A stretch of 64,000 bases of DNA from a virus, in IMG/VR virus record IMGVR_UViG_3300022933_000005, positions 27,340 through 91,339 of that record, one strand, 5' to 3'. The notes under the pieces were generated by a model that searched no databases, was not told the DNA's origin, and saw only the letters and a program-made list of their open reading frames with translations. Positions 10,501 through 28,195 of this stretch are shown in pieces. A program made the position numbers and the translations under genes. Numbering within the stretch: the stretch's first letter is position 1; each line of letters opens with the position of its first letter.

Positions 10501-10904
10501 CTCGCAAAAGCTTTTTCGTTGAGCCCTGCGGATATCAGCGATCGATATTCGATAGCTCGGTTGGCCTTCTCTTCCATTTGTCGGACACGACTAGGCCCGT
10601 CGTCTGTTTTAAACTTGCTAATCACATTTACGCCAACCAATAAATCAGCCGGTTCGGCAACTCGGTCAATAAAGACGTGTTCCCAGCGAGGTTTTAGACT
10701 TCCCTTGTTGCCGGTCCAAAGAAATTTATGAAAATCTGAATCCATAAGACGCTGTATGCGCGGTTTTTTAGAGACGTATGCAAAAAAGTTGACGAATGTT
10801 GGAGGAGAATCGGGTTTGACCACTACACCGGTAGAGTCGTTATCTGATTCCAATAGATAATAAATTCGACTATCGCCCGTATTGGCAACGTGTATAGCTT
10901 TCAT
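7581..10904 (-). CDS. 1107-residue head-operon protein with acidic DxDxDG cassette
   Basis: N-terminal domain (1-125) of unknown fold, then an Arg/Gly/Ala-rich linker (138-157) and the acidic cassette at 158-188 (NAHDGDLDGFIQEGT). One G-L-R-S follows at 193-196. The remaining ~900 residues form a large domain of unknown family with several His/Glu clusters, notably HEFSGHGSH at about 510-518 and RHELVAEF near the C-terminus. HEFSGH is spaced H-E-x-x-x-H, not the canonical HExxH, so a metalloprotease is not claimed. The start overlaps the upstream stop (TGATG) with GGAG in front. It shares architecture with the 1300- and 1711-residue proteins (N-terminal domain, basic linker, acidic cassette, G-[M/L]-R-S), so a similar virion role is likely. 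Confidence 0.78.
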   Translation of the reverse strand: MKAIHVANTGDSRIYYLLESDNDSTGVVVKPDSPPTFVNFFAYVSKKPRIQRLMDSDFHKFLWTGNKGSLKPRWEHVFIDRVAEPADLLVGVNVISKFKTDDGPSRVRQMEEKANRAIEYRSLISAGLNEKAFARSVGRMAGRAATGAVRGFRRGIRFDRNAHDGDLDGFIQEGTQWARAATPSVRTNLTPDGLRSTNQLPRKRFMKDEPPNPTTLFDASPQDLYVAKNRYYSWKKTEAALSAHLTGNDPEELLQSWIDLENELSEAFLDGRPIRTTDDFREIAAQLHSGFGPGLNQRMTIRYNQNGDPIGRKYDNPGGSYFDLITPDRQGDEEFSLYEKYTALTVMRNLRDNPDLQNHTLEIAHEDNRTPGNPVIQGPPAIAGQASSKQGKKWKVNKIALQLLRATTGTREERNKRFSERLDEMFEIDTTPSRHTKPRITIGLRKEKDHPQLLDFELGLDAEESSKWGHNTATTALIALAAHLDDVPEGEQAAVIKQGKAIFGATIATHEFSGHGSHTANIKSFADKDSGGEENALKRAYERIKDRIAKNPIADKTALDLDSEHIDKTSTGGYALAHGAYGPRVILAVDRAAADLSNHGDIRGVLSVDPDTMGVGQWMRYLDIMEKTGSNRAQRLIEWMGQPIMDGDGNAYTATPGLAQYFNALAGEAALIWLDVDLTISPGEELTLAHVLYGMSPSFYFGKYQLLSSESAAHGVTTLTDHRKGKYLSYKPRDGTATGENWIRVDDKALFILDDDNDIGPLDAVPDNVLAQGGWYKRDNGIELLDQGVLPAPTVLRESGIPGFKFRATDDNASVIRESARVSPEDVAPLLDAHAVVNRILADEKSSIPVAPRPVTNVQTAFKDPFNPTDLERRAERKRLNDEEVKRSQNYLAKLLKVRFNKIKESKSEVSSTGLPVTEFVSSKSPEQRVELRQKLVDQLLASLVYDHKFIDRSRINQTQSFGDPRGQRGIDVMGDHRLFEEGGALEGIISSLVGTLIQDGSFWDGLNDTDIDLLRNLSDNLGYRVYGSYAGAHTSHALLNELTGGGRHELVAEFMTLMTTGMDFPIWGPNGRRELTPAEVNALTRLFKWLSPKGTPKIRSGGTTYV

Positions 10905-13900
10905 CAGACCAAAACTCCTGCGGAGGCGTTGCGGTTTGGCTTCATTTCTTTCCGAATATCTTGAAGTAGTTCAGCTGCACGCTCTGCGATTTCAAGATGT
11001 ATTCGTTTGCGCAAAACATCTGCAGGTGTTGTGCTCGCAATAGCTCCCGGAAGATTACTCATGAACGAATCAACATTCATAAGGTCTATTCCGTCTGGGT
11101 TTGTGAATTTGACACCAACTCCAAGACGATCGAATCGTTCTTGTGCTTTTTTGGCTGCAAGATGTTGGCGAAGCCAGTTGACATTTCGTAGACCTGTAAC
11201 TCGTCCTTCGCTTATGGCGTCGTAGAAGTAACCAATTTCGGCGTCACTAAATCCTGCGCTGCGCAACCTAGCCGCTGCGGATTTGTCGTTTTTCCCTGTA
11301 TCTGCATCACTGAGTTTGAGATTGCGCCAATTGAGCTTGTTGACCGGGTAGCGGACAAACTCGATGTCGTCCATATCGATACCCCCGGCGATTTGTGCTT
11401 CATGGTGCTCGCCGTCGGGGGAGAGGTCTCTGTAGTTTCCAGTTGTTCCCGCTTTTAACAGGTCGTGCATTTTCACGGTGTTGTTGAAGGGGCCGTCTTC
11501 TTGCCCGCCATTCCAGCGGGGGGTGTGTGCGGCCAGAATTTCGTCAGCATCGTTTGAATTCATTGGTGTCGGGATAGCTCCACGACTCATGGCATCGCCA
11601 GTTCCGTAATGGGTTCTATCAGATACCTCTGGGCGCAGAACGATGTCGATGTCTCCACCCATTGCTGCTGGATCTCCCCAAGGGGCTGTTCCTTCTGAAT
11701 CCCAGAAGTCAGGGAGTCGCTCCATTAATGGTCCGTCAATGGCATCGAGGCTTTCGGATATCTGGTCATCATCCATGGCGTGATACAGGTGCCCACTTAT
11801 TGGTCGCTGAGACGCCGGGGTATTTGTGTCAAAACCGTTACGAAGGTCATAATCCATGCGTAAATCCGCAACACTGTTTTCGCCGTATGGAATATCTGGC
11901 CTTGAGTGGCTGCCTGTTTCTAATAGGTTTTCGAATTCGTCCGAATCGAGCAGGACTCTTGGTCTCCGGTCGAATCCTCGGTGGAATTGAACAGCAGCCT
12001 TGGCGATAGTCTCACTAACTTCGTCTTTTTCGTGGTTGGATAGAAACTCAGCAACCTCTGGGTCGATGTCCAAAAATGAACCATTTGGTCCCTGTAGGTA
12101 TTTCCAATCTTCGGAGTAACGGTCAGATTCTAGAGTCGGCACATGCATTAGATCATCCAAAGAGTCGTTGAGCTTCTCATTGTGATCCGAAAGTGCCCTA
12201 CTGCGACTTTGGATCGGCGGTAAGGCTCTAGAAGTGCGATCAGTTGCATAGTTGCTTCCCCAACCACTGGGAGCGGAGAACGCTGAGTCCGGAATCGCTT
12301 CAGCCAAGTCGGCGTTGCGGACGGTCATCGTTTCTGCTGCGCCGGGGTTGTCACTTTGCTTTCTCACACGAATCGACCGCATGCCCGTTCTGGAACCCCT
12401 GTCACGATGACGCTTAAGGATCGAGTGCTGCTGCTGGAGCCGCCGCTTACGTTCCTTCAACGCTTCTCGCTCAACGGATATTTCGGCAACCGAATTATCA
12501 AATTCTTCACGGGTAATAACGAAACCATCTTCATCTTCTCGGAGCTGAAGGAGTTCTGTTTCGAGAGCCCGTTCGCGCCCTACTGCGGTTTGGATTTCAC
12601 GTTCCATGTTTCGCAGTTCTATTTCTCTGCGCTGAGAACGCATCCCGCCACGAGTGATGTCGTCCCACTCGCTGTTGGCTCCCGGTCGTGCAAGCCGCCC
12701 CATGCTTCCGCCGGACTCAGATTCCTCAATACGTCGTCTTCTTGCACGGTCAGCCATATGTCGCCGCATGCTGGGATCAGAAAGATCAATCCAATTCCCG
12801 CCTTGTTCGGGTCTGTCTCGAAGAGTGGGACGGAATTCCCAGATTGAACCATCTGGTTCTTCGTGAGTCTCTCCATGGAATTTTCCGACTCGGGTAATTT
12901 CGTCAAACACGCCATCCATGCGACGGGAAGATCGCATTCCACGTTCTTCGATCGGGCTTTCAGGCAGTGAACTTTTCTGTTCTCTAAGCTCAGCCTGTCG
13001 TTTCGCCCATGTCCCCGGTACGTCTGGAAGCGTCGAAGGGTGTGGGGCAGCTTCATCCGGTCCAGCAGGTGCCCGCTGCATGCCCATATCGTCGGCAAAG
13101 GCCACCCCGTAACCAAGAGCCTCGTTGACTGGCATATGAACAACGACAACGTTCTTGTGGCCCAAGATTTCGTCTTCGTCTCCCGTCAGGCTGGCAACCG
13201 CTACGAGCATCGCCCAGCGGTGATGACCATCAAGAATGAATCCGTCATCGGTAACCAAAATCGGATCTGAAGAACCTTCGAATCCCTTGAAGAGCCAGTG
13301 ATCCGGGTTCTTGATATATGTCCCATCGGGTTGCTTTATGGTGGCCTTCCGGGCTTCTTTCATCACCTTAGGTCCAATTAGTTCGTTCTGACTGGCCTTC
13401 AGGTGCAACAAAGCCTTTTTGATTGGGTTCTCTGTGCCGGTTTCGAGATCATCGCCGGGCCGCAAATCTGCTTTGCCAAATCCACCCTCGACTCGAACGC
13501 CGTCTGCCCTCAGTCGATCGATTAATTCGCGAGTGGTATCTGCTCCGAACTGGGTAGCTTTCGCTGCTTCTTCAAGGATTTCTTCCTCAGACAGTTTACC
13601 TTCCAGCCGAAGTTGTCTCGCCTTTTCGTCGAACTGGTCGTGCCAGAGTGTGGCGGCTTTTGTCGCCGCGCCCCCTGCATCCAACACTTCCTCGTGAGCT
13701 TCTCGTCTAGCGGTCCAGCCGTCCGTGGACTTGAACCAGTCTTCATATTCATCCGTTGAGGGGTCGACATGACCGGCTGCGTTGGCGAGCTTGGTAAGAG
13801 CATCCTCATACTGTTTCTGGTGTTCTTCTGTGTCGAAATCCCAGACAGGACCACTGAACTGAGGCATACTATTTCGTAATATGCCTTCGTGGTCATAGCA

Positions 13901-16900
13901 GAACATGTTTGAGCCCGCTACGGAAACCTTGCATAAGTCATAATGTTCCTTGCCGAGCATGAATGGGGTATTAGTAGCTTCCAACTGTGCGATTAGGCGC
14001 TGTGCTTCAACGTCGTTTCCGTTTTCCAATGCCTCCGCAATAGGTATTCCGTTTTCCAATGCCTCGGCGAATTCCTTATGCAGTAGCGACTGGATCTCTT
14101 CGCCGGTAACTGAATCAGTTGGAACAATCTTGACGTGCATGAGTTTGTCGGAATCAGATTCTTCAGGGTTAAGGCGGTAATTATCTAAAATGATTCTCAT
14201 TGCAAGTTCTGTCTGATCAGCGGTGACGACGAGAGGTTTGCCATGGAAAAACTTCAGCTTCTCTTTGTCGCTAAGGTTCATGTAATCGTCGAGACTTTCG
14301 ACGAACCTACCTTCAGCTAATGCTTCCTTAACGGCTGCAATACTCTCTCGGTGTCTTTGTTTGCGTTGTTCCAGCCCTTTGTGGCCACCAAACTTTTGAC
14401 GCAACCGCCCCAAAATGGTGGGGGGCGCTTGGTCTAATCTGTCCAGCTCTAGCTCTAGGTCGTCGAGTATCACGTGATCGTTGATCTCCTCGGGAGTGAA
14501 ACTTTGTCCCACAGTGGCCCTTGTGGAACGCATCCCGCCATCGCCCCTCCGGACAATGTTTTCCCATTCGCTTCCAGCCCCCGGGCGAGCAAGTCGTCCC
14601 ATGCTTCGACCCTCTTGAGCCTCCAATTGGCGTCTGCGTGTGGCGCGTTCGGCTATTTCTCGTCGGTTTGCAGGGTCTGTCATATCACGCCAGAAACCAC
14701 CTTTTTCTGGACGATCCCGAAGAGTAGGGCGAAACTCCCAGACTGAGCCGTCTGGTTCTTCGTGTGTTTCTCCGGAAAACTTTCCGACTCTGGGTCCGTT
14801 GTCGAATTGGCCCAATTCTCGCCTAGAGCGCATACCGCCCTCAGCGCCGCCCAACCACTGTCCATTCCATGCTTCAAACGGGCCGACGGCTGGCAAAATA
14901 TCGTTGTCGATGAGCTCCACCAAAACTGCTGGGTCGAACAGGTCGTCAATTAGCACCTGCCATTCGCCCTCACCACTTAATGCTCCGATCCAAACATATT
15001 TTGTTCCATCGGACGCAGTTTTGATTTCACCGTCCCCGCCGCTGCCCCAACTGTGTATTTCTGTTCGATGCCGCAATCGTCTAGCAGTTTCGAGCTTTCG
15101 CTTCTCCGTAGTTAGTTGGCGTTCTTGCCTCTTCCTCGCCGCTGCTGCTTCTATCTTTTTCACAGCACTAGTTGGAATGATGATGCCTGATGGCGTCATA
15201 ACTTCGCCCGGTTCGAGAGGAGTGTCCCAAGGCGCTTCACCCATGTCAGTGTCGGGAACAATGGAACCGGGTTTAAACGGAACGTCAACCTCTGGAATCC
15301 CGTAGACAACGTCTGCTATGTCTGCGTCCATCCAATCAAGAACTTCATTGAGTTCGTCGCCTGCGATGCCTCCGGTTCGTTTAAGAGCCGCTAGTTCAGC
15401 TGTTCCCTCTAGAAACAACAGGTTGAGGTGGGCTTTCGCCGAATTGTGAACAGGTAGTCCTCTGGCGTCCAAAGGACTCACATATTGACCCGGAGTAATA
15501 TCTTCTGCATAACCACCAGAGGTTGCTTGCAGGAAACCTTGAACCATGTCTTGGTAATATTGTCCTGCGAGAAGATGCAGCATGCTTCCCTCAAATTGGA
15601 CCATGTCCATCGGGGGAAAGTCGGTAGTGGTGCCGGGTGGAAGCGCATCTTGGAATGTGGAGACAACGGCCATAACGAACTGTTCGTTTGTCCATTCAGA
15701 AGGATGTGCAGTTAATGATTCGAGTCCAGTGCCATCCCTTTTGTAAATCGAGAATTGACCATCACGCTCATAAGCTTCCAACACACGTTGTGCAATCTGT
15801 TGATACTGTTTAACGTGCGCAAGTTCGTGGTATCCGACATGCATGGAAAAGGCTTCGAGACTTCCGCCGTGAGCAGCAGCAGTAAGGTCATTTGCATATT
15901 GTTTATGCCAGTATTCCATTTTTTCAGTATGTGTAAGAAAGTCTGCGATTGCCGCCCATTTCTCGGCGTCTGTTACTGATGCTGAAAAGGTACCTCCAGC
16001 GTCAACCTGTACGAGTTTCGGTCGACCATCTGGACCCTCATGAGTTAGTCCACCCTCTTGAAACGGTCGCAGGGCAATGGCAGTAGCGTTGAATTCGAGT
16101 TTGGTAGCCATTCCGGTGCCGGTACCTTCCCAGAGGGGAATGCATTCCCCTTCGGTACCCCAATAGCTTTGGAAGTCGTCATAATCTGGGTTGTAGGCTC
16201 GGAAAGAAATCTTTTTGAGACCGCTCATGGCTCTCGGATCGTCTCCGAACTCGTGAAGAGTCGAACCTAAGAAGCCTCGCATCGCTGATTCGTGTCGACC
16301 AACAAGACCGTCAACCATTTCCATCGCAGTGGGGTCTTTGGCTCTATACGCATCCCGGATTGCTTGTGCGCCCGTTTTGGTTTGTGCACCCATGAAACTG
16401 AATACGTCTTCGCGTACTGTCGCACGCATCTTTTCCAAATTTTGACGCATCGTAAGATTGTCGTCCCAGAGTTCTTCTCCGAACATGCCGGTGAACAATC
16501 CCTTCCATTCCAGATCAGGGAAATCACCGGTATCTACGTCGGTCATCGCTTCCAACAATGACCACATATCCTCGTTTAGTTCGTCTCCAGCCGAGATGCC
16601 GTACTGATCCATTAAAGATTGAATAACGGTGTTGCGTTCAATCAAGGCTGCTTCAATCGATGCAGTATTACCAATAAGCTGTCCGGCCTTACCTGCGGTT
16701 GCGCGCCGTTCTGCGATATTGGATCTCAGCTGTTCCGCTTCGCTGTCGCCTCGACCGGGTAATGACCAGCTTCGACCTCTACCGGATCTGAGACTATTGA
16801 CAAGACCCCGGACTGTGTCGCGTAATACCTCCACAGGTGAAAAACAGTTTGTGCCGAACTCGTCGGTGAACTGGTTGGCTGCTGGGGTACCGGGGGGGCA

Positions 16901-17509
16901 ACGAAACTTCCCTAAAGCGTCAACAATGAGACCAAGGCCGCTGGCGGCACGTCCCCCAAGGCTTTGGCCCGGAAGGGTGTCTTTGAGGGTTCTGCCGAGA
17001 CCTTTGACCTTAATTTCTTCCTCAGTCTCAATGATTGGTTGACCCGTTCTTGGGTCCTGATCGTAAGTCCGTATCCGAATCTGAGGTCGGGTTGCTCGCC
17101 ACTGCATAGCGTCAGCCATATTGGAGCGCTGTTCTTCTTTCGGCACTGCTTTAGGCGGATCAATCCACCCGAAATTATCTTGACCTGTTTTGAGGTCACG
17201 AGCAGTGACATGCAGTTTGAAAACTTGTCCGGGATCACGAACACCCTTGGGGTCGTAACGAACCTCGGGCTCTATTTCTTTAACTCCTGAACCGGCTGTG
17301 CGTTTTTTGGACTTATCTTTTTCCTGTTCAGGGGAATCTCCGATGCTGCCATCAAGCGCCTTAACTACAATTTGGGCGTTAAGGGTTGGCTGTGCAGCAA
17401 GAATGTTTCTGCGTTCAAGAAAGTCCAGCCCAGCAGCTTCTAAATCTCGCCGACTACGGCGAATTCTTGCTGAGAGGTAGGTTCTTTTTTTTGGAGAGAA
17501 CTCGGTCAT
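10904..17509 (-). CDS. 2201-residue multidomain head-operon protein: zinc-protease-like, ParB-like and ART-like domains
   Basis: N-terminal domain (1-195), then the Cys cassette at 203-222 (RCPPGTPAANQFTDEFG, then Cys). Residues about 470-730 hold HELAH (561-565) with a downstream E-G-T-A-E (701-705), a pattern fitting a gluzincin-type zinc peptidase. G-M-R-S occurs at 892, 992, 1524, 1622 and 1709. Two copies of the ~95-residue repeat lie at 902-995 and 1534-1625. Residues about 1365-1470 contain ILDGHHRWAM, typical of ParB/Srx-like domains. A coiled coil spans 1630-1705. The C-terminus has RPISGH (1902), HYGTGDAM (1967) and HHEAQIAGG (2035) in an order resembling ADP-ribosyltransferase-like toxin domains. 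Roles are inferred from motifs; this is probably a packaged polyprotein or effector carrier. Confidence 0.8.
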   Translation of the reverse strand: MTEFSPKKRTYLSARIRRSRRDLEAAGLDFLERRNILAAQPTLNAQIVVKALDGSIGDSPEQEKDKSKKRTAGSGVKEIEPEVRYDPKGVRDPGQVFKLHVTARDLKTGQDNFGWIDPPKAVPKEEQRSNMADAMQWRATRPQIRIRTYDQDPRTGQPIIETEEEIKVKGLGRTLKDTLPGQSLGGRAASGLGLIVDALGKFRCPPGTPAANQFTDEFGTNCFSPVEVLRDTVRGLVNSLRSGRGRSWSLPGRGDSEAEQLRSNIAERRATAGKAGQLIGNTASIEAALIERNTVIQSLMDQYGISAGDELNEDMWSLLEAMTDVDTGDFPDLEWKGLFTGMFGEELWDDNLTMRQNLEKMRATVREDVFSFMGAQTKTGAQAIRDAYRAKDPTAMEMVDGLVGRHESAMRGFLGSTLHEFGDDPRAMSGLKKISFRAYNPDYDDFQSYWGTEGECIPLWEGTGTGMATKLEFNATAIALRPFQEGGLTHEGPDGRPKLVQVDAGGTFSASVTDAEKWAAIADFLTHTEKMEYWHKQYANDLTAAAHGGSLEAFSMHVGYHELAHVKQYQQIAQRVLEAYERDGQFSIYKRDGTGLESLTAHPSEWTNEQFVMAVVSTFQDALPPGTTTDFPPMDMVQFEGSMLHLLAGQYYQDMVQGFLQATSGGYAEDITPGQYVSPLDARGLPVHNSAKAHLNLLFLEGTAELAALKRTGGIAGDELNEVLDWMDADIADVVYGIPEVDVPFKPGSIVPDTDMGEAPWDTPLEPGEVMTPSGIIIPTSAVKKIEAAAARKRQERQLTTEKRKLETARRLRHRTEIHSWGSGGDGEIKTASDGTKYVWIGALSGEGEWQVLIDDLFDPAVLVELIDNDILPAVGPFEAWNGQWLGGAEGGMRSRRELGQFDNGPRVGKFSGETHEEPDGSVWEFRPTLRDRPEKGGFWRDMTDPANRREIAERATRRRQLEAQEGRSMGRLARPGAGSEWENIVRRGDGGMRSTRATVGQSFTPEEINDHVILDDLELELDRLDQAPPTILGRLRQKFGGHKGLEQRKQRHRESIAAVKEALAEGRFVESLDDYMNLSDKEKLKFFHGKPLVVTADQTELAMRIILDNYRLNPEESDSDKLMHVKIVPTDSVTGEEIQSLLHKEFAEALENGIPIAEALENGNDVEAQRLIAQLEATNTPFMLGKEHYDLCKVSVAGSNMFCYDHEGILRNSMPQFSGPVWDFDTEEHQKQYEDALTKLANAAGHVDPSTDEYEDWFKSTDGWTARREAHEEVLDAGGAATKAATLWHDQFDEKARQLRLEGKLSEEEILEEAAKATQFGADTTRELIDRLRADGVRVEGGFGKADLRPGDDLETGTENPIKKALLHLKASQNELIGPKVMKEARKATIKQPDGTYIKNPDHWLFKGFEGSSDPILVTDDGFILDGHHRWAMLVAVASLTGDEDEILGHKNVVVVHMPVNEALGYGVAFADDMGMQRAPAGPDEAAPHPSTLPDVPGTWAKRQAELREQKSSLPESPIEERGMRSSRRMDGVFDEITRVGKFHGETHEEPDGSIWEFRPTLRDRPEQGGNWIDLSDPSMRRHMADRARRRRIEESESGGSMGRLARPGANSEWDDITRGGMRSQRREIELRNMEREIQTAVGRERALETELLQLREDEDGFVITREEFDNSVAEISVEREALKERKRRLQQQHSILKRHRDRGSRTGMRSIRVRKQSDNPGAAETMTVRNADLAEAIPDSAFSAPSGWGSNYATDRTSRALPPIQSRSRALSDHNEKLNDSLDDLMHVPTLESDRYSEDWKYLQGPNGSFLDIDPEVAEFLSNHEKDEVSETIAKAAVQFHRGFDRRPRVLLDSDEFENLLETGSHSRPDIPYGENSVADLRMDYDLRNGFDTNTPASQRPISGHLYHAMDDDQISESLDAIDGPLMERLPDFWDSEGTAPWGDPAAMGGDIDIVLRPEVSDRTHYGTGDAMSRGAIPTPMNSNDADEILAAHTPRWNGGQEDGPFNNTVKMHDLLKAGTTGNYRDLSPDGEHHEAQIAGGIDMDDIEFVRYPVNKLNWRNLKLSDADTGKNDKSAAARLRSAGFSDAEIGYFYDAISEGRVTGLRNVNWLRQHLAAKKAQERFDRLGVGVKFTNPDGIDLMNVDSFMSNLPGAIASTTPADVLRKRIHLEIAERAAELLQDIRKEMKPNRNASAGVLV
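12635..12910 (-). repeat. ~95-residue repeat, copy C (inside the 2201-residue gene)
   Basis: Encodes the unit beginning FDEITRVGKF, with core GETHEEPDGSIWEFRPTL and SMGRLARPG, ending in GGMRS. It aligns over its full length with copies at 14525-14806 and 2645-2920. Limits are approximate and derived from the protein alignment. Confidence 0.85.
14525..14806 (-). repeat. ~95-residue repeat, copy B (inside the 2201-residue gene)
   Basis: Encodes FDNGPRVGKFSGETHEEPDG through SMGRLARPG to GGMRS, colinear with copy C in the same protein and copy A in the 1300-residue protein. This copy starts 6 residues after a G-M-R-S and ends at another. Confidence 0.85.
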
Positions 17510-17533: not shown

Positions 17534-19351
17534 CTAAATGGGACCGTTGTTATTGGTTTCCTCCGCGAGTAATTCAAATTCGATCAGAGAAGCCATGAAT
17601 TCTGCATCATCTGCACTCAGGATCGCTTTTTCGTCACTACCAGCAACCCAGTTGGTCGGAATAAGTTCTTCCAGACCAAGATCTTTAGCTCGCTTCATAA
17701 TGTGAGCTTTTGTTGCTGGTTTGTTACTTGCCCGACCATAAGCCTGAACCGCATTACGGAGATCTTCTTCCGACACAATCGGATATGAACCATCCTTCAT
17801 GGCGTGACCCTGATCGGCCAAATCGTCGCGCTCATCGTCTGAGAACGCACGCTTAAGGGCGATTTCAGCAGCTTCGGCCTCGATGGCCTCTGCCTCGTCC
17901 GGCTCGTATGTGTCATAACCCAAAACTTCACCGTCAAGAGCAACGAACACATCATGTGACTTGCCATCTACGCCATTAATTTCTATCGCGTAGCAGTCGA
18001 AAGATTCGAATACATCCGGCTCTACGGCGTTGACTACACCTTCGATTGTCTTAACCGCGATTTCGGCAGCCTCGCTGAAGTCAACAAGGTCAACTGTTTC
18101 GAAAGCATCTTTTTGTTCAAAGACAGAATCGTCGAGGCGGCTAAAGCCGAGAACCTCTCCAGACTTAGCTTCAACGAATACTTCGATAACCTTTTTGCCG
18201 TCAACATCAAGATCGCAGATAAAGAGATCTGCGCGATCTGAATAAACAGAATCAATTACCGTTGCGTACTCTGCGCCCTTGAATTGGACTTCAAGAGCTT
18301 GTTCAACTTCGAGCAAGCTGGGCATGCCCTTTTCAGAGACGCAGCCGCCCGGGCAGTCGTCGCAAACAGAGGCGTTGCCGGGGTAGACCTTTCGGTCGAG
18401 GGCACACAAATATGCACCGACAGATTTCTTAGCTGAGGACTCTTCGTATTCTTCATCTTCTTCCTCCTCCTCTTCCTCAGCAAGAGCTGGGGCTGGGGGA
18501 ACTTCTTCCTCTTCGGCAGCGGGAGCCGGAGGGGCTTCCTCTACGGGAGCGGCTGGAGCAGCGGCGGCAGGATCGGCAGCAGGAGCAGCAGGAGGAGGAG
18601 CAGCAGCAGCAGGAGCCTCTTCCTCTTCGGCATCCTCTTCCTCTTCTTCCTCATCGTCGACGTTTAGGCGGCTTTCGCGCATCATAACGCCAGCTTTTTC
18701 GTCCTTTTCTTCCTCTAGGCCGACCCAACCGTCATCTTCAGTTTTTTCTACGATCGGCTCGTCTTCAGAAATTGGTTCGTTATCAACCTTTTCATCGATT
18801 GACTCATCTTCGGTCTTTTCTTCTACATCATCTTCAGATTTAGCCTCTGTAGCTTCGTGCTCGTCGTGATCCGGGTCGTCATCGTCATCCTCTAATTGGG
18901 TATCAGAGTTATCGCGAGTGTCTTTTTCAATACGACGCTTTTCGGCTTCAACCTCGGAGACCTCGTCCATGACGCTGGCTTTTTCTTCAAGTGCCTTGAT
19001 CAGCACTGCGTCCTCGTCGTCCAGAGTTTCATCATTAACGATGGCTTGTTCCATTGGACTCTCTTTCAGTTCGACCGCTGATGCGCCACACTTACCGCAC
19101 ATCTTACTACCTGCAGTATACTCGCAATCAGTAGTACTGTAGCCCTTAGAACATGTAAGCGCTGTACCATCGGTGTTCAGCTTGACTACGTTTTCTTCTT
19201 CCAGACCCATTTGTTGAGGCTCCTTGTACTGCATGGCTCTGGACAGACACCCCTTAGGGTTGATGCAGCCGACACATGGCTTTGCGACCTTTTCGCCGCT
19301 CAACATGCATTGGTACTTCGATTGTTTGCCTCGGAGACCGCTATTAGACAT
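17534..19351 (-). CDS. Acidic Cys-rich capsid-operon protein with PepSY-like repeats
   Basis: 605 residues. Two related Cys modules are visible: C15, C26, C29, C35 and C316, C330, C333, C337; both read Cys-x-L, basic patch, C-x-x-C, then Cys. A further four Cys lie at 67-88. Between the modules is a long disordered acidic region (130-305) with poly-Glu and an Ala/Pro run. Residues about 350-405 and 425-480 are two similar alpha/beta units with the look of PepSY domains. Residues 503-566 form a helical domain (AMKDGSYPI, AVQAYGRA, HIMKRAKDLG) often found at the ends of phage prohead proteases and related head proteins. It sits directly after the protease gene and may be a scaffold or capsid accessory. 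ATG follows GAGGTAGG. Confidence 0.8.
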   Translation of the reverse strand: MSNSGLRGKQSKYQCMLSGEKVAKPCVGCINPKGCLSRAMQYKEPQQMGLEEENVVKLNTDGTALTCSKGYSTTDCEYTAGSKMCGKCGASAVELKESPMEQAIVNDETLDDEDAVLIKALEEKASVMDEVSEVEAEKRRIEKDTRDNSDTQLEDDDDDPDHDEHEATEAKSEDDVEEKTEDESIDEKVDNEPISEDEPIVEKTEDDGWVGLEEEKDEKAGVMMRESRLNVDDEEEEEEDAEEEEAPAAAAPPPAAPAADPAAAAPAAPVEEAPPAPAAEEEEVPPAPALAEEEEEEEDEEYEESSAKKSVGAYLCALDRKVYPGNASVCDDCPGGCVSEKGMPSLLEVEQALEVQFKGAEYATVIDSVYSDRADLFICDLDVDGKKVIEVFVEAKSGEVLGFSRLDDSVFEQKDAFETVDLVDFSEAAEIAVKTIEGVVNAVEPDVFESFDCYAIEINGVDGKSHDVFVALDGEVLGYDTYEPDEAEAIEAEAAEIALKRAFSDDERDDLADQGHAMKDGSYPIVSEEDLRNAVQAYGRASNKPATKAHIMKRAKDLGLEELIPTNWVAGSDEKAILSADDAEFMASLIEFELLAEETNNNGPI

Positions 19352-19395: not shown

Positions 19396-22300
19396 TTATA
19401 AATCCGTATTTGGGATGTCGACTGTACGACCTGCTTCGTTCGTGGCTTTCCGTGTTCTGCTTTGAATTGCTTCTGTTTCTTTCAATATGAAAGTCGAAAT
19501 AGCTGCAGAAGAAAGCTTTTCAATCAATTCCGCAAACATCTCTGTTCGAGACCCCTTTTCCGCAGTTTGACGATCCAAAACATGCATTAAAGCATCGAGC
19601 ATCTCGTCAATCTCTGTCTGTGTGACAGTCAACGAACCAGCGTTAGTGCGCTTGTCGCCGGTTTTACCCGATTCTTGACGAGCCAATGTTCGTTTCAAGG
19701 TTCGGAGGGCATCAGCTGTTTGCTGATCTTTGTCTCGTGAAGCCATATCGATTTCTTTTTGAAGAGAATCTTCGATTTTTTTAAACCATGTGGCTTCGCC
19801 CGTAATCTGAGCACGACCTTCGCGCTCTGATCGCATGCCTCGGTTGCCCGTACTGGTTTCATTATTTTGGTTGAGGTTGAGTCTGCGTGATGGAGCTGAA
19901 TACTGTGGTCGAGGATTGCCTCTACTGGGTTTAGCTCCAAGCTCTCGCAATTGGCGTTCCAGACGATCCATTTCTTCTTTGTCACCAGTTGCTCGCGCGT
20001 TACTCCAAAGGTTGCGAAGATCTCCGATCTTTTCTTCTCTGGATGTATGAGCTTGCGAACGCAAACCTTGTCGTCGTCTGGCATCTACATACTCTCGCGT
20101 TGATGTACCCGACAGCTTGCTGCTGTTTTGTCGAATGGATCGTAAACCGCTTGGAGAAAATAGTTCGAGGTTGTTGAGTTCCATAATGTCTAGGTCGTCG
20201 CTACCCCCACCCAGAGTTCGAATTTGAGGGGTGTCTCCTTCGGAAATAAATCGATCACCCTCATAGTCGGAAAGAAGATCTTCAATATGACTCTTACGAC
20301 TTAGCGCGGCAGCACGCAATTCGCCTTCAACCGGCGACAGTTCGCCAGACTCTCTGCTGAGATAACTCTCGAACAATCCATCAAGAGCACGCAATTGGGA
20401 ATGGGTCAAATCATCCGACCCTGAAACTATGTCTAAAGCTTCAGACCAAATGTCTGCGTGTTCACTTCGAACTACATCCCCACTGTTGGTCGCTCTACTG
20501 TCAGCATTAGCAAACGATGACTCTAAGTTATTAAGAACTTTTTTACGTTCTGTTTTAGCTGTTTGTGCCGTTGTTCGTTGGGGCTCTCTATCTTCGGTTT
20601 CACGCTTGCGAACACTAGCTGGGAGTATGACTCCGCCTCTTCGAGCGCGTCGCTCCGCTATCGTTTCAAAGCGACCCTCTGAACGGTCTCTGCGAAGCTC
20701 TCTTTTTTCTATAATCTTGTCTAATTCATTGTAGATACGGTCATAGTCAATTTGCCTCATCCCGCTCTTACTTGGAGTCATTTCCGCACTGAGGAGAGCG
20801 AACTTATCTTCAGTACTCAAATCGTCCCAATCGTCGGGCTTAACTTCTTCAAACTTCTTACCTTTAAAGCGTTCTTGTGAATCTTCCATTACATGCCCCA
20901 TGGGGCGACCGCGAGTCTCTGGTTTAGCTTCGTCGGCAGTTGCCCTTTGTGGGATTTTCTGCTCCGACCTCAAGCCACGACGCGCAGGGTCGAGACTGGT
21001 GCCAGTGGTTGCTTCATCCCATCGGGACAAAAGATCATTCGACTGTCGCCGCTCCGCCGCTTGACCTGCCTCGCGACGAGCTTCGGAACGTCGTGCGATT
21101 CTCTCAACTCGACGTTGTCCTAGACGACTAAGCGCAGCATCATCCATTGCGTTCCAGCGGTCGATATCCGCCCGATCCTCTGGCCTCACATCTCTGATAT
21201 CAGGAATGATGTCCTCGCCGGTAGGTTCGTCAAATAGGGCGTCGGTATCCCCCGGGAAAGCTCGAAGTGACTGAGATCCACTGCGAGATTGTCTTCTCGT
21301 GCGGCCACCTCTACTCATATTGGGTCCACCCATGTCGGCCCTACGGGCACCCCTTAACGTTTCGACAACCGGCTCACCAGCGAGTTGGGGCAGATCTACT
21401 CGCGAACGCCCCTGTTTGGTGGCGTGTGTGTATTGGCCTTCCATGATTGCCCACCGTCGGGGTGAAGCAGAGCCGTGTTCTTTTAAGTCTGCGAACATCA
21501 AATAGTCGCGACCGGGCAAATAAAGACCCCGACGTTCACCCTCTGGAGCACCTATAGCTTCCATCATTTTTGCCTGATTGGCTGGAGTTATGTCAGGATG
21601 AGCACCATTGTTGATTCTCTTATTCCCGAATCCTCTGTATTTATTGTCTGGCAGGTCGAGTTGCGACGACCTAAATTTTTGGGTTGGTGAAAGTGCAGCG
21701 AATTCGAGTATGTCGCGACCTGTTTTGGGATGCATTCGACTTTGGGTAGGCGGCGAAACTTTCTCCCACGCATGGGTGAAGTCGTGATATTGCCCTCTAG
21801 GGATTTTTACTACCCCATCTTTGTTGGCAGCAAGTTTCTGATCATATTTTGCTAAAACACCATTTACTTTGCTGTCTTTGCTTTTGCCAATCAGTGCTTT
21901 TATATGGGAACGAAGTGAATCGATCTCATCTGGCGTTAGCTCAAGTTCAACACCCTTAGATTCGACGGGCAAACGAACAAAACTTTTACGTCCACCTTCC
22001 CAACTATGAATTGCCGCAGAAATCAAATGCTTTCTTCGTTCTGAATCCAACTGCATGAAACGTTGTTTCATCTCAGCATATTCAGCGTCGAATCGTCCCA
22101 CCTCGTCCATCTGGGCCTCTAGAACATCTAGTTTTTTATCCAGATCTTCAATTCGGTCTTTACGTTCCTTAACCGACATATTTCTAATAGCTTGTGATGG
22201 AAGCTGCGCCTTCAGTGCGTCCCATTCAATATTTTCTGTTCGGGTACCGGGTCCTCGCGGATTTACTGCGGCTGGACCTGCTCCAGTGCGTGCAGTAGCT

Positions 22301-24531
22301 CCTCGGCCCCCGCGTATCGGCGTTCCCTCTCTCGGCCCGGTAGGTTTGCGAGTACCATATTTATAAGTGTTGGATCGCACACTGCCCGCTCGTTCATCTT
22401 CAGCAATCTGGCTAAATACTTCGTTCGTATATTCTTCATGTGAGGGCAGGCCCAACATTTCGTTGAGGTCATCACTTCTTGCGTACTTCAACGTGGAGTC
22501 GTCGCCGGGCACATAGCCCTCTGGCTCATCAGCCCCACCGTGATACATGGGTATTTGTCGAGAACGGTCTTTGAGCATCTCTTGCACATTCTCTGATGCA
22601 TCTAACGTCTCGCCCACCTTTTTGAGCTCTTCGTTTCCATACCGATGCAAAGGCTCTCCGGGACCAGTTGGTCCTTCCGAATCAGCGTATTTCTCTTTTC
22701 TAAACCACTCCGTTCTTCGCCCGAGGCCAAAACCGTCAAATGGAACCCAATTGCCGTGGCTACCACCTTCACCCGATTCGAGAGCGTCGGCATCTCGAAG
22801 AACGTCACCTGTACCGGAACGCATATAGAACGGCTGGGTAGTTCCGTCAGCTAATTCGACAAGAAGTATCGGGCGTTTGTTTAGTTCAGTATCAGTGTGC
22901 ATCAAGAGGGTTTCACTGATCTGAAAATCTCCCTCTCTGAGCGTCGGCGTGAGGCGATGGTCCCTAGTCTCTGAGCGCATGCCAGCGGCACGCTCCACCC
23001 TGCGATTCTGGACAGTTCGTTTACCCGGACGAGTTCGATTCGGATTACGACGAGGCTTCCGTGCCTCTCTGACGTGGGCACTGTCATCTGGGTAATCAGG
23101 GGGTTTGATTCTGGTTTTTGGTTCGCCGGGCCAGTTTGTGTTGATACCGGGAATAGATGGACGCTGGAAAGGCGTACCTTCTTGAACTATTCCGTCGCCA
23201 TCACCATCCCAAGCTTTTGGGTCGAACGCTGCGGTGAGGGCTCTCCCAGCCCTACGGCCTTTTCCCAAGCCACCACCTCGCCCCAGTCTTCCACCTAGGG
23301 CCTTCACAGCCGTATCTGCTGCGTCCTCAAATCCGGACGGATAATCACTACACAACAGCCCATCGACACTAGGGGTCACTGTGACTCTGTAATAATCGAA
23401 AATTGGTTGAAGCATGTCTTTGAACTCAAACATGTTGTCCAATGTGCAGGAAATAAGATAATCAGATTTAGCTTCTTCTGTTGTTTCTTTTCCCTGAATT
23501 GGGCTGACATGATGATTCGGCTTATGGCTCATTGGGCCGATGGGCGGCATGTTCGGTTGAACCGGGGAATAAACCGTTTGTGGTTTAACTCGTGCTGGTT
23601 TGCCAAACATGTATCTGCCGTCGCTGGCCTTGTGGTATCCCATTCGATACATGCGGTTAGTCCCATCCACCATCTTGCGGAGGAACACCACCATGTTCTC
23701 GGTGGCCTCAACGATCTTGATCGGTACCTTTGTTCGTGAGTGAATTTCTTGAGCCAGTTCCATGCGAGCTTCCATGTCAATGGGACCAGCCTCACCACGA
23801 GACCAAATGTCTCTATCGGCGTGGTGGGAATCGCTATCTGGTTTCTTAGGCATTGGAATAACGATCATTTGCATGGGAACTCGTCCCATCATCTGACCCT
23901 TTTCGAAAATGAAAGCTTCCTCTTCTTCTGCCTGAATATCTGGTTCTGAAGCAATGTGGTTCTTTGTCCCACATTCACAACCACCAATTCCACAGGCACC
24001 GTATTCTCCGTCCTTGACAGAAATCGTGCCTGTCAGTTGGTTGGCACCATGCAGCACAGGGCTTACTTCATAAAGTTCAACCTCTTTGAGCAAGTTGGCC
24101 TGCTTGACCGGATCGAAAGTGGCTTGAAGGGTCTTATAGCCGATTGACCATTCCTGTTCTTCTCCGAAGAAGGCGACGTTAGCGAATGCCTCTCGCCCTT
24201 TTTCTGCACCCAGATTGAACTGGACTTTTGCAAACAAACCGCCGATTCCAGCACTCTTCATTTTTTCTGGAAGTCGTGGGTCCGAGTTAGCGACTTCGTA
24301 GATCTCTAAAACTTTTCCAATGGGGTCGTTCCAGCTATGTCCCCAAACCACTCTGGGCTTTCTTCTTTTTAGGCTCTCATTGAAGGCGCCGGGAAGAACG
24401 ATGTCGCCAACACTGTCTTTGTTGCCTATGCCAGAAACAAAACATTCGACAATCCCTTGGGCATTGTCAACACTGATCTGAGCGCCGTTTCGGGCTTTAA
24501 ATTGAATGTCATCAAGCAGTTCGTTTGGCAT
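19396..24531 (-). CDS. Prohead protease (S78-like) with giant C-terminal extension
   Basis: 1711 residues from the ATG at 24531, which has GGAGG 7 nt upstream. Residues 1-170 match the HK97-type prohead maturation protease: GIVECFVSGIGNKDSVGDIV, a His in VVWGHSW (65) and a Ser in EWSIGYKT (129), then YEVSPVLHGAN. Usual family members are about 200-400 residues, so over 1300 residues are extra. The extension holds a Cys/Gly patch (180-189), a Gly/Arg linker (412-430), the acidic cassette (436-466), G-[M/L]-R-S at 517, 1186, 1462, 1489 and 1565, and long charged helices. It lies between the portal and the acidic Cys-rich gene, as maturation proteases do. The fusion suggests the protease is made with its own substrates or cargo. 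Confidence 0.85.
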   Translation of the reverse strand: MPNELLDDIQFKARNGAQISVDNAQGIVECFVSGIGNKDSVGDIVLPGAFNESLKRRKPRVVWGHSWNDPIGKVLEIYEVANSDPRLPEKMKSAGIGGLFAKVQFNLGAEKGREAFANVAFFGEEQEWSIGYKTLQATFDPVKQANLLKEVELYEVSPVLHGANQLTGTISVKDGEYGACGIGGCECGTKNHIASEPDIQAEEEEAFIFEKGQMMGRVPMQMIVIPMPKKPDSDSHHADRDIWSRGEAGPIDMEARMELAQEIHSRTKVPIKIVEATENMVVFLRKMVDGTNRMYRMGYHKASDGRYMFGKPARVKPQTVYSPVQPNMPPIGPMSHKPNHHVSPIQGKETTEEAKSDYLISCTLDNMFEFKDMLQPIFDYYRVTVTPSVDGLLCSDYPSGFEDAADTAVKALGGRLGRGGGLGKGRRAGRALTAAFDPKAWDGDGDGIVQEGTPFQRPSIPGINTNWPGEPKTRIKPPDYPDDSAHVREARKPRRNPNRTRPGKRTVQNRRVERAAGMRSETRDHRLTPTLREGDFQISETLLMHTDTELNKRPILLVELADGTTQPFYMRSGTGDVLRDADALESGEGGSHGNWVPFDGFGLGRRTEWFRKEKYADSEGPTGPGEPLHRYGNEELKKVGETLDASENVQEMLKDRSRQIPMYHGGADEPEGYVPGDDSTLKYARSDDLNEMLGLPSHEEYTNEVFSQIAEDERAGSVRSNTYKYGTRKPTGPREGTPIRGGRGATARTGAGPAAVNPRGPGTRTENIEWDALKAQLPSQAIRNMSVKERKDRIEDLDKKLDVLEAQMDEVGRFDAEYAEMKQRFMQLDSERRKHLISAAIHSWEGGRKSFVRLPVESKGVELELTPDEIDSLRSHIKALIGKSKDSKVNGVLAKYDQKLAANKDGVVKIPRGQYHDFTHAWEKVSPPTQSRMHPKTGRDILEFAALSPTQKFRSSQLDLPDNKYRGFGNKRINNGAHPDITPANQAKMMEAIGAPEGERRGLYLPGRDYLMFADLKEHGSASPRRWAIMEGQYTHATKQGRSRVDLPQLAGEPVVETLRGARRADMGGPNMSRGGRTRRQSRSGSQSLRAFPGDTDALFDEPTGEDIIPDIRDVRPEDRADIDRWNAMDDAALSRLGQRRVERIARRSEARREAGQAAERRQSNDLLSRWDEATTGTSLDPARRGLRSEQKIPQRATADEAKPETRGRPMGHVMEDSQERFKGKKFEEVKPDDWDDLSTEDKFALLSAEMTPSKSGMRQIDYDRIYNELDKIIEKRELRRDRSEGRFETIAERRARRGGVILPASVRKRETEDREPQRTTAQTAKTERKKVLNNLESSFANADSRATNSGDVVRSEHADIWSEALDIVSGSDDLTHSQLRALDGLFESYLSRESGELSPVEGELRAAALSRKSHIEDLLSDYEGDRFISEGDTPQIRTLGGGSDDLDIMELNNLELFSPSGLRSIRQNSSKLSGTSTREYVDARRRQGLRSQAHTSREEKIGDLRNLWSNARATGDKEEMDRLERQLRELGAKPSRGNPRPQYSAPSRRLNLNQNNETSTGNRGMRSEREGRAQITGEATWFKKIEDSLQKEIDMASRDKDQQTADALRTLKRTLARQESGKTGDKRTNAGSLTVTQTEIDEMLDALMHVLDRQTAEKGSRTEMFAELIEKLSSAAISTFILKETEAIQSRTRKATNEAGRTVDIPNTDL

Positions 24532-24629
24532 ATTGAAACCTCCGTCAATACATAATAAGCGACAGAAAGCTTCTACCGTGTAAGTAACAAGCATAAGAAC
24601 TGCAGTTTCCGTAAACTATTTTACGGAAA

Positions 24630-26630
24630 TTAACTGATTGGGAAAACCCAAGCCCTTCGAGCCTCATCCTCAGCCAAAGCCGCTGGTGCTTTTGCAAGAA
24701 GGCTGGCAAATACGCTGACTAGCTCACCCTTAACCGCCGCATGACGGCGATCTTCGTCCTGTAATGTCATACAGGTGGTGATCTTTTGATTAATAATCTG
24801 CTCTGTATCTAAATTAATTGATTTAATACGATCCATTTGAGCATTCAGTTGAACCTGAACATCTTCTCCAGATGGCGGTTCGTACTCATCAGATTCATTG
24901 GACTGCTTTTCTTGAGAGTCTTTAATAATTGAGTTCAAAACGGGTCGGATGTCTTCATCCATCTGTCGATCCCATGTACCGAGAGTCATAATATTTTTGA
25001 TATCCAAGGTGCCTTCGGTTAGAAGCGTGCGCGCTTTTCGTCCAGCAGCTTTTTCTAAAATAACTCGTTGCTGTCTCTCGAACAGACGTTCGAAGCTGCG
25101 GTCGAGAATGCCCGTCCAACGCTCGTAGTCCACACCCAGATCGTCCTCTTTGGTCTCAATGTCGAATGGTTCACCCGAGAGTTGTCCCATATTGGGAGCA
25201 GCTTCGGCAGGTGGTCCAGCAGCCGGTGGGCTTTCTTGTTCTTGAGCCAAAGAACCTTGCATGGTGTTCGGGTCAAGGGGTTGTTCACCCGGTTGCGGAC
25301 CTTCCGCTCCCGGCGTTGGCATCCCGGGCTGAGGTGGCATCATGCCCGGTTGCCCGCCCATCATTGCGTTGGGCTGCTCCATTTCCTTCTCAGTATTTGC
25401 GACAGGCGTCAAATTCGGGTTCATAAGTAATGAATCTGCAAGGTCAGATTTAACTGTCTCTTTGCCTGTCATGTCACGATATTCGTTGATGCTTATCAAC
25501 CCGTTCTGGAGTTCATCCATCAAGTAACGATCGCGTTCTTGTTTATAAATAATTAGGTTGGGAACCGTTGAGGTGTCGAAGTCGATGTAATGAATAGGGT
25601 CAATTTCATCCAAGGCACGAGCTATTGGTTCGAGGTGGGGGAGCATTGTCTCCATCCAGAAAACACGAATCTCTTCTCCCGCGTTACTGAACGTTCTTCC
25701 CGAAGCGTTACCTATAACGGTCTCAGGAACTCCGAAGGCAGCAAAGATTTCTTCTTTGGTGATGGTTCTCATTTGGATGTAGGCAGCATCGCGAGGACTC
25801 GATGAGGTATCGACAAAATCAACCCCGTCATCTGCTGCTACTACGGTGGTTGAACCAACGCGACCGAGATTGCCCCTAAATCGTGATCTCAATTCGTTCT
25901 TGTCGTCATCGTCGATTTCGCCACGGAGAACCAATAGGCCCCCGGGTCGGCCATCGTTAAGAAGGAAGTTGCGGTTGTATAGCTTCGCAAGGTTTTCGAT
26001 TTCTATAGCAACGCCCGCAGACTCCATCGGGGTCATCGACAGGTAGGGATCTAAGGGGTGTGGTCTCCGAACCCAAACAACATCTTCTGGCTTAAGACGT
26101 ACTTTCTTTCCGTCGGGCATGGCGACTTCATAACCAGACACAAATGTTTTTGGATGAGGCACTGGTGCGGTGTGTTGAGGGGGAAGCAAATTAAGCCCAA
26201 TAATTCTTCCGTCTCTAGAACGCACTTTCTCTATAAAGGCACCACGGCTACTCATCAGCAGTTGGGCTGAAAGCCGATATCTGAATATAAATGAATTTTC
26301 ACCAATATTAGATTTAGTATTCAAGATATCTAATATTGTGCTTTCCCTCATGACGGAAGAGCTTGTAACTAGTTTTCCATCTGGAGCATTGCCCTCACGA
26401 AGAATAACCGGAAGGCGTGCTTGGTTACCAGCGATCACATCCACACAGCGGGCCACCCATGTGACCTTCTGCATGCCTTCTCGGTACGCCCGTTCAATAT
26501 CCCAAGGGTCGAAGTAAGGTTGCCCAGCAAGTGTCGGGTTTGTGGCTATGGGCGCGCCGGGTCCCACAGCGGCATGTTTCCGCTGTTCTGATCCGTCAAT
26601 AGATTTGTTATTAGTAGAGTTCCACGCCAT
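24630..26630 (-). CDS. Portal protein
   Basis: 666 residues. The N-terminal ~400 residues have the HK97/SPP1-type portal pattern: WVARCVDVIAGNQARLPVIL, LLMSSRGAFIEKV, LPPQHTAPVP, LKPEDVVWVRRPHPLDPY, a G-x-P/N-A-G-E-E-I-R-V-F-W region and LPHLEPIARALDE. About residues 415-480 are a disordered Pro/Gln/Gly/Met-rich stretch, followed by a helical C-terminal domain that could reach into the head. The portal forms the dodecameric DNA entry ring at one capsid vertex and binds the terminase motor. Here it is transcribed divergently from terminase, separated only by a small membrane protein gene and the divergent promoter region. Confidence 0.93.
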   Translation of the reverse strand: MAWNSTNNKSIDGSEQRKHAAVGPGAPIATNPTLAGQPYFDPWDIERAYREGMQKVTWVARCVDVIAGNQARLPVILREGNAPDGKLVTSSSVMRESTILDILNTKSNIGENSFIFRYRLSAQLLMSSRGAFIEKVRSRDGRIIGLNLLPPQHTAPVPHPKTFVSGYEVAMPDGKKVRLKPEDVVWVRRPHPLDPYLSMTPMESAGVAIEIENLAKLYNRNFLLNDGRPGGLLVLRGEIDDDDKNELRSRFRGNLGRVGSTTVVAADDGVDFVDTSSSPRDAAYIQMRTITKEEIFAAFGVPETVIGNASGRTFSNAGEEIRVFWMETMLPHLEPIARALDEIDPIHYIDFDTSTVPNLIIYKQERDRYLMDELQNGLISINEYRDMTGKETVKSDLADSLLMNPNLTPVANTEKEMEQPNAMMGGQPGMMPPQPGMPTPGAEGPQPGEQPLDPNTMQGSLAQEQESPPAAGPPAEAAPNMGQLSGEPFDIETKEDDLGVDYERWTGILDRSFERLFERQQRVILEKAAGRKARTLLTEGTLDIKNIMTLGTWDRQMDEDIRPVLNSIIKDSQEKQSNESDEYEPPSGEDVQVQLNAQMDRIKSINLDTEQIINQKITTCMTLQDEDRRHAAVKGELVSVFASLLAKAPAALAEDEARRAWVFPIS

Positions 26631-26887: not shown

Positions 26888-28195
26888 GTGACTACGGATT
26901 GGAATAAGGTACTCGATTACCTAGAGCCGCGCGAATCACCTCACTGCCCAGAGGACGCGTCTCTTACCCAAAAAGTTTTCTTACGCACTTATTCGTTGGA
27001 AGCTCTCTTCGGTGGTGCGGCGGGTGGCGGAAAAAGTTCCGCCCTCTTGATGGCAGCACTTCAATATGTTGACGTGCCACAGTATTCGGCCATCCTGTTT
27101 CGTCGCACCTACGCCGACCTTGCTCTGCCGGGAGCGATCATGGATCGTTTCCAAATGTGGACAGGTCCGGAAGAAGATGTGAAGTGGAACGCCAATACCT
27201 ACACGGCAACTTTTCCCTCTGGTGCCCGAATCTCATTTGGTTACCTAAATAACAGTCAGGATTATTTGCGATACAAGGGTGCGGAGTTCCAGTTCATCGG
27301 GATGGACGAGGTCACCGAAATCCGGGAAGCCGACTACCGATACCTATTCTCTCGCTTGCGTCGTCCGGCATCGGGTCCACTCTCAAAGGTTCCTCTACGG
27401 ATGAGGTGTGCCTCCAACCCCGCGCCTAACTGGGTTAGACAGCGTTTCATTATCGAGGGTCAAAATGAGGGACGAATTTTCGTTCCTAGTTTTTTGGACG
27501 ACAACCCGGGCATTGACGCTGATTCGTATCGACAATCGCTGCAAGCTCTGGACCCCGTGGAACGCAGGCGACTCGAAGAAGGCGACTGGTGGTCTACCAC
27601 TTTAGGTTCTCTGTTCGATAGGGAATCAGTTGTCCTGTTGGATCAGAACGAAATCCCAGAGCTGACCTCAATGGCAAAGGCCGTGCGTTTTTGGGACTTG
27701 GCTGCTACTGAACCGTCCTCAACCAACCCTGATCCAGACTGGACAGTCGGAACCCTCATGATGTTCGACCAAGGAATTGCTTACATTTTGGATGTGAAAC
27801 GTGCAAGGGTCAAAGGGGAAAAAGTGGAGCAACTAATCGCCCAAACCGCTTACGAAGATGGGCATGGGGTTCCAATCAGGATGGAACAAGAACCGGGCTC
27901 CTCTGGAAAAGCCCTTGTAGATCAGTACGCTCGCTACATCGTGCCCGGCTACGATTTCATTGGCATGCGTGCCACCGGAGACAAGGTCACTCGTGCCCGT
28001 CCATTTGCTGCCGCCCTTGCTAACGGCAACGTCAGGGCGGTGCGTGGGCCATGGTTAACCGACTGGCTTGACGAATTATCCAGTTTCCCCGAAGCCTGCA
28101 ATCACGACGATCAGGTGGACTCGGCCACGGGAGCTTTCACACACTTAGCCGGATTGGGGTTGCCTCAGCGCAAACGAGTTGCTATCGTTGTCTGA
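26888..28195 (+). CDS. terL: Terminase large subunit
   Basis: 435 residues from a GTG start with AGGTGATGGA in front. The ATPase domain has Walker A GGAAGGGKS (42-50) and Walker B FQFIGMDE (D140, E141). The C-terminal nuclease domain has the first catalytic Asp in VRFWDLA (D270) and the last acidic motif HDDQVDSATG. The protein cuts the concatemer and pumps DNA through the portal. No small terminase subunit is recognisable beside it. The gene heads the plus-strand cluster and is divergent from the portal, an unusual split of the packaging genes. Confidence 0.95.
   Translation: MTTDWNKVLDYLEPRESPHCPEDASLTQKVFLRTYSLEALFGGAAGGGKSSALLMAALQYVDVPQYSAILFRRTYADLALPGAIMDRFQMWTGPEEDVKWNANTYTATFPSGARISFGYLNNSQDYLRYKGAEFQFIGMDEVTEIREADYRYLFSRLRRPASGPLSKVPLRMRCASNPAPNWVRQRFIIEGQNEGRIFVPSFLDDNPGIDADSYRQSLQALDPVERRRLEEGDWWSTTLGSLFDRESVVLLDQNEIPELTSMAKAVRFWDLAATEPSSTNPDPDWTVGTLMMFDQGIAYILDVKRARVKGEKVEQLIAQTAYEDGHGVPIRMEQEPGSSGKALVDQYARYIVPGYDFIGMRATGDKVTRARPFAAALANGNVRAVRGPWLTDWLDELSSFPEACNHDDQVDSATGAFTHLAGLGLPQRKRVAIVV

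Follow-up and report, generated by a model that had tools for sequence, protein, structure and literature searches.

Prohead proteases of the S78/HK97 type are mostly proteins of about 250-485 aa whose genes lie between those for portal and capsid. T4 gp21 and the herpesvirus assemblins cleave head and scaffold proteins. Polyvalent proteins are giant multidomain chains whose genes belong to the virion gene block. Their domains include helicase and zeta-toxin-like ones as well as ArdC-N and MPTase-PolyVal, and ArdC-N and the zincin metallopeptidase are characteristic of them (PMC5512222). These proteins have already been likened to viral polyproteins, their release by a peptidase has been proposed, and the assemblin-like peptidase is described as limited in distribution and always C-terminal (PMC5512222). 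In other phages, the protease Pro of P1 cleaves the cargo protein DarA (PMC12810830), and gp245 of SPN3US processes proteins inside the head at A-x-E, where it prefers Ser at P1' (PMC10052503).

We analyzed a window of 64,000 nucleotides from an uncultured virus (IMG/VR record IMGVR_UViG_3300022933_000005, a 91-kb contig, positions 27,340 to 91,339; coordinates below are those of this window unless a related locus is named). It contains a gene on the minus strand (19396..24531) for a protein of 1711 aa that is delimited by its open reading frame and by the orthologues L002, L004, L005, and L007. The protein resembles the S78/HK97-type proteases in its domain, in its His and Ser residues, in its predicted fold, and in the place of its gene between portal and capsid genes, but it heads a chain of 1711 aa, and of up to about 3.8 kaa in relatives. 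The reading frame runs from 24531 to 19396 and begins with an ATG preceded by a GGAGG Shine-Dalgarno sequence, which is the likely start codon; the open frame extends from 24594 to 19396 and has an in-frame ATG at 24594 as a possible alternative start. The gene lies downstream of the portal gene (24630..26630, minus strand; PF04860, 2.7e-47), with the terminase large subunit in divergent orientation (26888..28195, plus strand; phrog_979, 4.5e-109). It is upstream of a gene for a 605-aa acidic protein (17534..19351, minus strand), a scaffold candidate with a Cys-rich start, a long acidic, Pro/Ala-rich middle, and a conserved C-terminal part, which also follows the polyprotein gene in relatives of the GMRS clade (named after the tag described below). 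The gene of the HK97-type major capsid protein (MCP) is outside the window, beyond a block of giant ORFs, which places this block between terminase/portal and MCP, i.e., among the virion genes. Further along the window (55089-61865), one and the same PHROG family matches a 2258-aa tail fibre-like protein several times over.

The original prediction saw features of an S78-type protease at the N-terminus, and profile searches agree with it. Peptidase_S78 (PF04586, Pfam) matches residues ~24-170 (24022..24462, minus strand) with 43.2 bits for a cut-off of 21, and the head maturation protease family phrog_80 matches with 2.1e-26, while TIGR01543 scores 51.4 bits, slightly below its cut-off of 59. 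His65 (in VVWGHSW) and Ser129 (in EWSIGYKT) are unchanged in 22 of 22 diverse homologues. When the predicted structure of residues 1-520 was compared with known structures, the top match was T4 gp21 (5jbl, Z 9.2 over 124 residues), and several herpesvirus proteases matched the predicted S78 domain with Z of 5.6-7.2; Foldseek alone gave no match at E<=0.001 for the predicted protease model. Judged by its profile matches and its predicted structure, the N-terminal domain is a prohead protease of the S78 family with an assemblin fold, and is predicted to be proteolytic.

Two small conserved domains follow the protease. The first, of alpha/beta type (residues 246-316; 23584..23796, minus strand; pLDDT 87-91), is weakly cystatin/NTF2-like by structure, with VIA-align Z of 5.5-7.7 that are within the range of chance, and the second spans residues 356-416 (23284..23466, minus strand; pLDDT 83-88). 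What the original prediction called an acidic cassette is probably a calcium-loop-like module with the sequence DGDGDGIVQEG (residues 434-478, approximate limits; 23098..23232, minus strand; DGDGDGIVQEGT). Self-BLAST and a search of related genomes found this module, which is common to the protease-polyprotein and to p1300, p1107, and p913 (the 1300-, 1107-, and 913-aa cargo proteins presented below). In total, the extension beyond the protease domain comprises ~1500 aa. It includes a variable cassette (residues ~517-774; 22210..22983, minus strand), which is absent or different in the four orthologues named above, and a C-terminal helical domain (residues 1569-1711; 19399..19827, minus strand) that is present in 33 complete ORFs, the window protein included. 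Pfam recognized only S78 in the window protein and no enzyme domain in its cassettes. A fold search with the predicted extension, whose model has a mean pLDDT of 53, gave no significant match, and tblastn against 50,697 phage records of annotated isolates matched neither the extension nor p913.

The fusion of a protease with such a long extension is confirmed by orthologues, which show it at 72-83% identity in independent contigs of other samples. Scans of viral contigs returned, for each query, several hundred sequences related to the N-terminal region, and we extracted 113 distinct protease domains from the loci retained; in these, as in the window protein, the protease domain is N-terminal. 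Complete relative ORFs range from 435 to 3772 aa, and those incomplete at a contig end reach 3881 aa, so that the size, initially called unusual, is not so within this phage group. The short relatives stop about where the calcium-loop-like module and cassettes are added in the long ones, their C-termini falling soon after the second small domain. One could suspect an artefact of assembly or sequencing, given that the proteases of known isolates are mostly much shorter, but the recurrence of the architecture in other samples and the dozens of long complete relatives make this a negligible concern, and the sequencing error that had been named as a way to refute the fusion is rejected by the same homologues. 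Among annotated isolates with a related domain, proteases longer than the usual 250-485 aa are found in two Gordonia phages (720 and 1633 aa). The 1633-aa capsid maturation protease of Gordonia phage DalanDe (L009:4641-9542) has its S78 domain in its C-terminal part, behind ~1100 residues. We saw no tag repeats of the kind described below in the Gordonia and Brevibacterium proteases. In the genome collection, we found relatives at only three loci, in two MAGs. These are probably phage contigs that were binned along, and the host is therefore not reliably assignable.

The extension is punctuated by a short tag, G-[ML]-R-S. The five sites counted in the original prediction are all present (minus strand): residue 517 (GMRS, 22972..22983), residue 1186 (GLRS, 20965..20976), residue 1462 (GLRS, 20137..20148), residue 1489 (GLRS, 20056..20067), and residue 1565 (GMRS, 19828..19839). 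We scored conservation across eight orthologues, with flanks given as averages. The G, R, and S are kept in 8/8 at the second site (flanks 0.34 and 0.47) and at the third (0.55 and 0.56); the comparison also took in the fourth and fifth sites. The tag is not limited to the protease-polyprotein, since four sibling cargo proteins, whose genes likewise lie between those of portal and MCP, also carry it. In these five large proteins, G[MLI]RS occurs 19 times (5 in the protease extension, 5 in the 2201-aa protein, 5 in the 1300-aa protein, 3 in the 913-aa protein, and 1 in the 1107-aa protein), against a mean of 0.56 and a maximum of 5 in 2000 shuffles, and GMRS is their commonest 4-mer. It was not found in the portal protein, in the MCP, in the acidic 605-aa protein, or in any of the remaining ORFs listed for the window. 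All five sites of the polyprotein are in low-confidence stretches of the predicted extension, the first in one with pLDDT<50, although more than half of the model is also of low confidence; these stretches are probably flexible, as far as the model indicates.

The tag is conserved as protein. Its Gly, Arg, and Ser codons vary freely among synonymous ones, and the constraint is therefore on the protein and not on DNA or on translation starts. Its hydrophobic position is encoded by ATG, TTG, TTA, CTT, CTG, ATA, or GTG. An internal translation start was ruled out, as the Leu/Ile versions use TTA, CTT, CTG, and ATA besides TTG, and so was a DNA-level recombination site, as the codons differ between copies. 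On the related contig G030, all 27 occurrences of a GMRS-like codon pattern are on the strand that encodes the cargo; the opposite strand has none, and the reversed pattern never occurs.

Other lineages have other tags. An unbiased search for the top k-mer of each extension returned, for most long ones, GMRS, GLRS, GFAS(R), GLAS, R/K/G-LSSG, FSSG, or LGSR(S), mostly of the form hydrophobic-x-Ser, and some proteins mix GMAS, GLSS, GFSS, GFAS, and GLRS. Pooled over 86 extensions, [GRK][MLF][RASG]S occurs 714 times versus 103 in shuffles, and 63 of the 86 exceed every one of their own shuffles. There are exceptions: one clade has STRS as its tag, unlike hydrophobic-x-Ser, and 27 longer relatives have no tag at three or more copies, some of them being incomplete at a contig end. 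On the protease tree, the tag label changes 27 times, versus 68.6 with shuffled labels (0 of 200 as low), a difference to which near-copies contribute. Wherever a second cargo protein of a phage was readable, an independent search gave the tag of that phage again: GLSSG in G016 and LRSS(G) in three proteins of G009.

These observations lead us to a reading that we hold to be fairly probable: a head polyprotein led by a protease, with sibling cargo proteins, would be cut at the tags by the attached protease, and the modules would be packaged and probably ejected. The chain would consist of the S78 protease, two small domains, the calcium-loop-like module, several cargo cassettes, and the C-terminal helical domain. 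This protease-headed chain and its siblings would be built into the prohead, where the S78 protease would cut both at the lineage's tag (in this phage G-[ML]-R-S), directly before or directly after the Ser. The freed modules would then be packaged in the head and probably ejected together with the DNA. This reading is favoured by the polyvalent-type domains in the cassettes of relatives, and the cutting of internal head cargo by P1 Pro and by SPN3US gp245 is a precedent for it. The earlier suggestion that the extension is a substrate of the protease gains support; for the extension itself, a chain of exchangeable cargo cassettes is a better description than a scaffold.

The exchange of cassettes is visible in the window phage and its relatives. 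The siblings are the 2201-aa protein (10904..17509, minus strand), with five GMRS sites and a duplicated GMRS-bounded cassette, the 1107-aa protein (7581..10904, minus strand), with the calcium-loop-like module and one GLRS, the 1300-aa protein (656..4558, minus strand), with the module and five GMRS sites, and the 913-aa protein, which adjoins the window on the left (L020:11940-14681, minus strand) and, besides the module and G-x-R-S sites, ends in a zeta-toxin-like kinase (PF06414, 4e-10). The 2201-aa protein has two copies of a GMRS-bounded module of ~100 aa and the 1300-aa protein has one, a module of the 913-aa protein bounded by G-V/I-R-S recurs in the protease extension of L007, and in L191 precisely the 76-aa module that separates site 1489 from site 1565 is missing. 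Of the internal-repeat ends, 36% are within 15 aa of a tag, versus 13% at random. Cassettes are duplicated, shifted between proteins, or lost at tag boundaries. Such shuffling could mean that the tags aid it as low-complexity linkers or as scars of recombination, without any protein partner. We regard this as very improbable: residues are kept while codons differ freely, so that homology at the DNA level is not what is conserved, and the tag is specific to a lineage yet common to unrelated proteins of one phage.

Our preferred reading, cleavage at the tags by the attached protease, competes with another enzymatic one, in which a different enzyme, e.g., the cargo zincin MPTase-PolyVal, would cut the tags and the S78 domain would cut the capsid protein only. 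The cassettes of long relatives include ArdC-N, MPTase-PolyVal, KTSC, and UvrD modules, and the relatives L064, L111, L146, and L222 each have at least two distinct effector domains in one chain, where the window protein has S78 only. In the window, HELAH and LDGHHRW stretches occur in the 2201-aa protein and an HEFSGH stretch in the 1107-aa protein; by their sequence, they suggest metallopeptidase-like and ParB/Srx-like modules, and Pfam gave nothing above cut-off for them in either protein. The HExxH-type stretches of the two proteins, the MPTase-PolyVal domains of relatives, and the metallopeptidase self-processing proposed by Iyer et al. (PMC5512222) would fit such an enzyme. We nevertheless strongly doubt it, as several tagged polyproteins lack a Pfam metallopeptidase, whereas there is always an S78 domain, either in the same chain or encoded directly upstream.

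The latter arrangement is found in some lineages, where protease and extension are separate genes, a state that the original prediction had listed as evidence against the fusion. The separation is probably only partial, because a slippery heptamer and an open -1 frame lead into the polyprotein and are predicted to rejoin the two parts. An in-phase A_AAA_AAA lies just before the end of the protease ORF in six relatives of one clade (L184:11365-11371, L178:10641-10647, L189:4560-4566, L180:3440-3446, L198:11347-11353, and L196 at the end of ORF 7432-8928), and separately in L049 (end of ORF 1414-2721). In these seven relatives from two clades, the -1 frame across the junction is open for 575-3342 codons and runs on into the calcium-loop-like module. 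The -1 products of L184, L178, and L049 reach a C-terminal region resembling that of fused homologues, and the C-terminal helical domain also ends the separate gene of L184 and L178. Five closely related loci share a 9-bp hairpin 7 nt downstream of the heptamer, in which no compensatory changes are seen, and L049 has a different hairpin close downstream. The z-score of the downstream structure is -2.4 to -2.9 in four of the seven loci and weaker in three. Read from the nucleotide sequence, this arrangement suggests that the protease-cargo fusion of the split relatives is made by -1 programmed frameshifting. The window phage has a plain in-frame fusion and no frameshift arrangement. The likeness is to retroviral Gag-Pol, in that a -1 slippery heptamer would join a protease ORF to a long ORF in the split relatives, but here the phages have DNA genomes, the proteins are unrelated, and the frameshifting is predicted and absent from the window phage.

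The strongest objection to cleavage at the tags comes from the capsid protein, which one would expect to be the chief substrate. The MCP lacks the tag, and in ten relatives whose tags differ, an identical K-D is retained close to where HK97 is cleaved (for comparison, the HK97 chain has 385 aa in the prohead and 282 aa when mature); G-[ML]-R-S was thus ruled out as the capsid cleavage site, where K-D is conserved. As the K-D boundary is constant while the tags differ, the protease would have a second or looser specificity, or the tags would serve otherwise, e.g., in docking. A comparison of protease columns with tag type across lineages gave no clear specificity column. Of 13 lineages in which Arg precedes the tag Ser, 9 have E or D at position 52, and all 47 others in which this position is occupied have K. 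Only positions 52 and 55 stand out beyond the ragged N-terminus, a signal that is confounded by phylogeny. If the tag were an uncut peptide for docking or packaging that binds to capsid, portal, or scaffold, this would account for its absence at the MCP boundary, for one tag per cassette border and several per protein, and for its restriction to cargo of the head region. Docking is unlikely in our view: the tag varies from one protease clade to the next while MCPs stay about 65-73% identical across lineages whose tags differ, and a position between modules is more natural for a cleavage site than for a loading signal.

The protease-headed chain differs from the described systems in several ways. 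Like the polyvalent proteins of Iyer et al. 2017, for which release by a peptidase was proposed, the chains are giant and encoded in the virion gene block, and those of some relatives combine two or more effector domains; the assemblin-like peptidase is C-terminal there and N-terminal here, and a lineage-specific tag between modules was not found in the excerpts considered (PMC5512222). MuF polymorphic toxins (PMC5576092) and P1 DarA/DdrB are also head-associated cargo that enters the host, as ours would, but protease and cargo form one chain here, and Pfam matched no MuF domain in any of the large proteins, the window protein included. In giant phages such as phiKZ and SPN3US, the head protease likewise cuts several internal head proteins at a short motif; there, it mainly removes N-terminal propeptides from separate proteins and does not free cassettes from a protease-headed chain. 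We did not find the combination of an N-terminal protease, punctuation by a lineage tag, and a predicted frameshift join in the literature (open-licence PMC papers). Hence, while polyvalent and S78 proteins are known, these three features appear to be new.

More broadly, we see an even chance that these loci represent a large group of uncultured dsDNA phages with capsid-packaged, protease-headed polyproteins, a cleavage tag that is common to the cargo proteins of each phage and diverges with the protease, and, in at least two clades, a fusion made by -1 frameshifting only. If this is true, DNA phages would use a strategy resembling the polyproteins of RNA viruses to load and release many proteins of early infection. 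The tags would predict from sequence which proteins or fragments the heads of uncultured phages package, and the naturally diversified pairs of protease and tag would be a ready set to study and exploit protease specificity.
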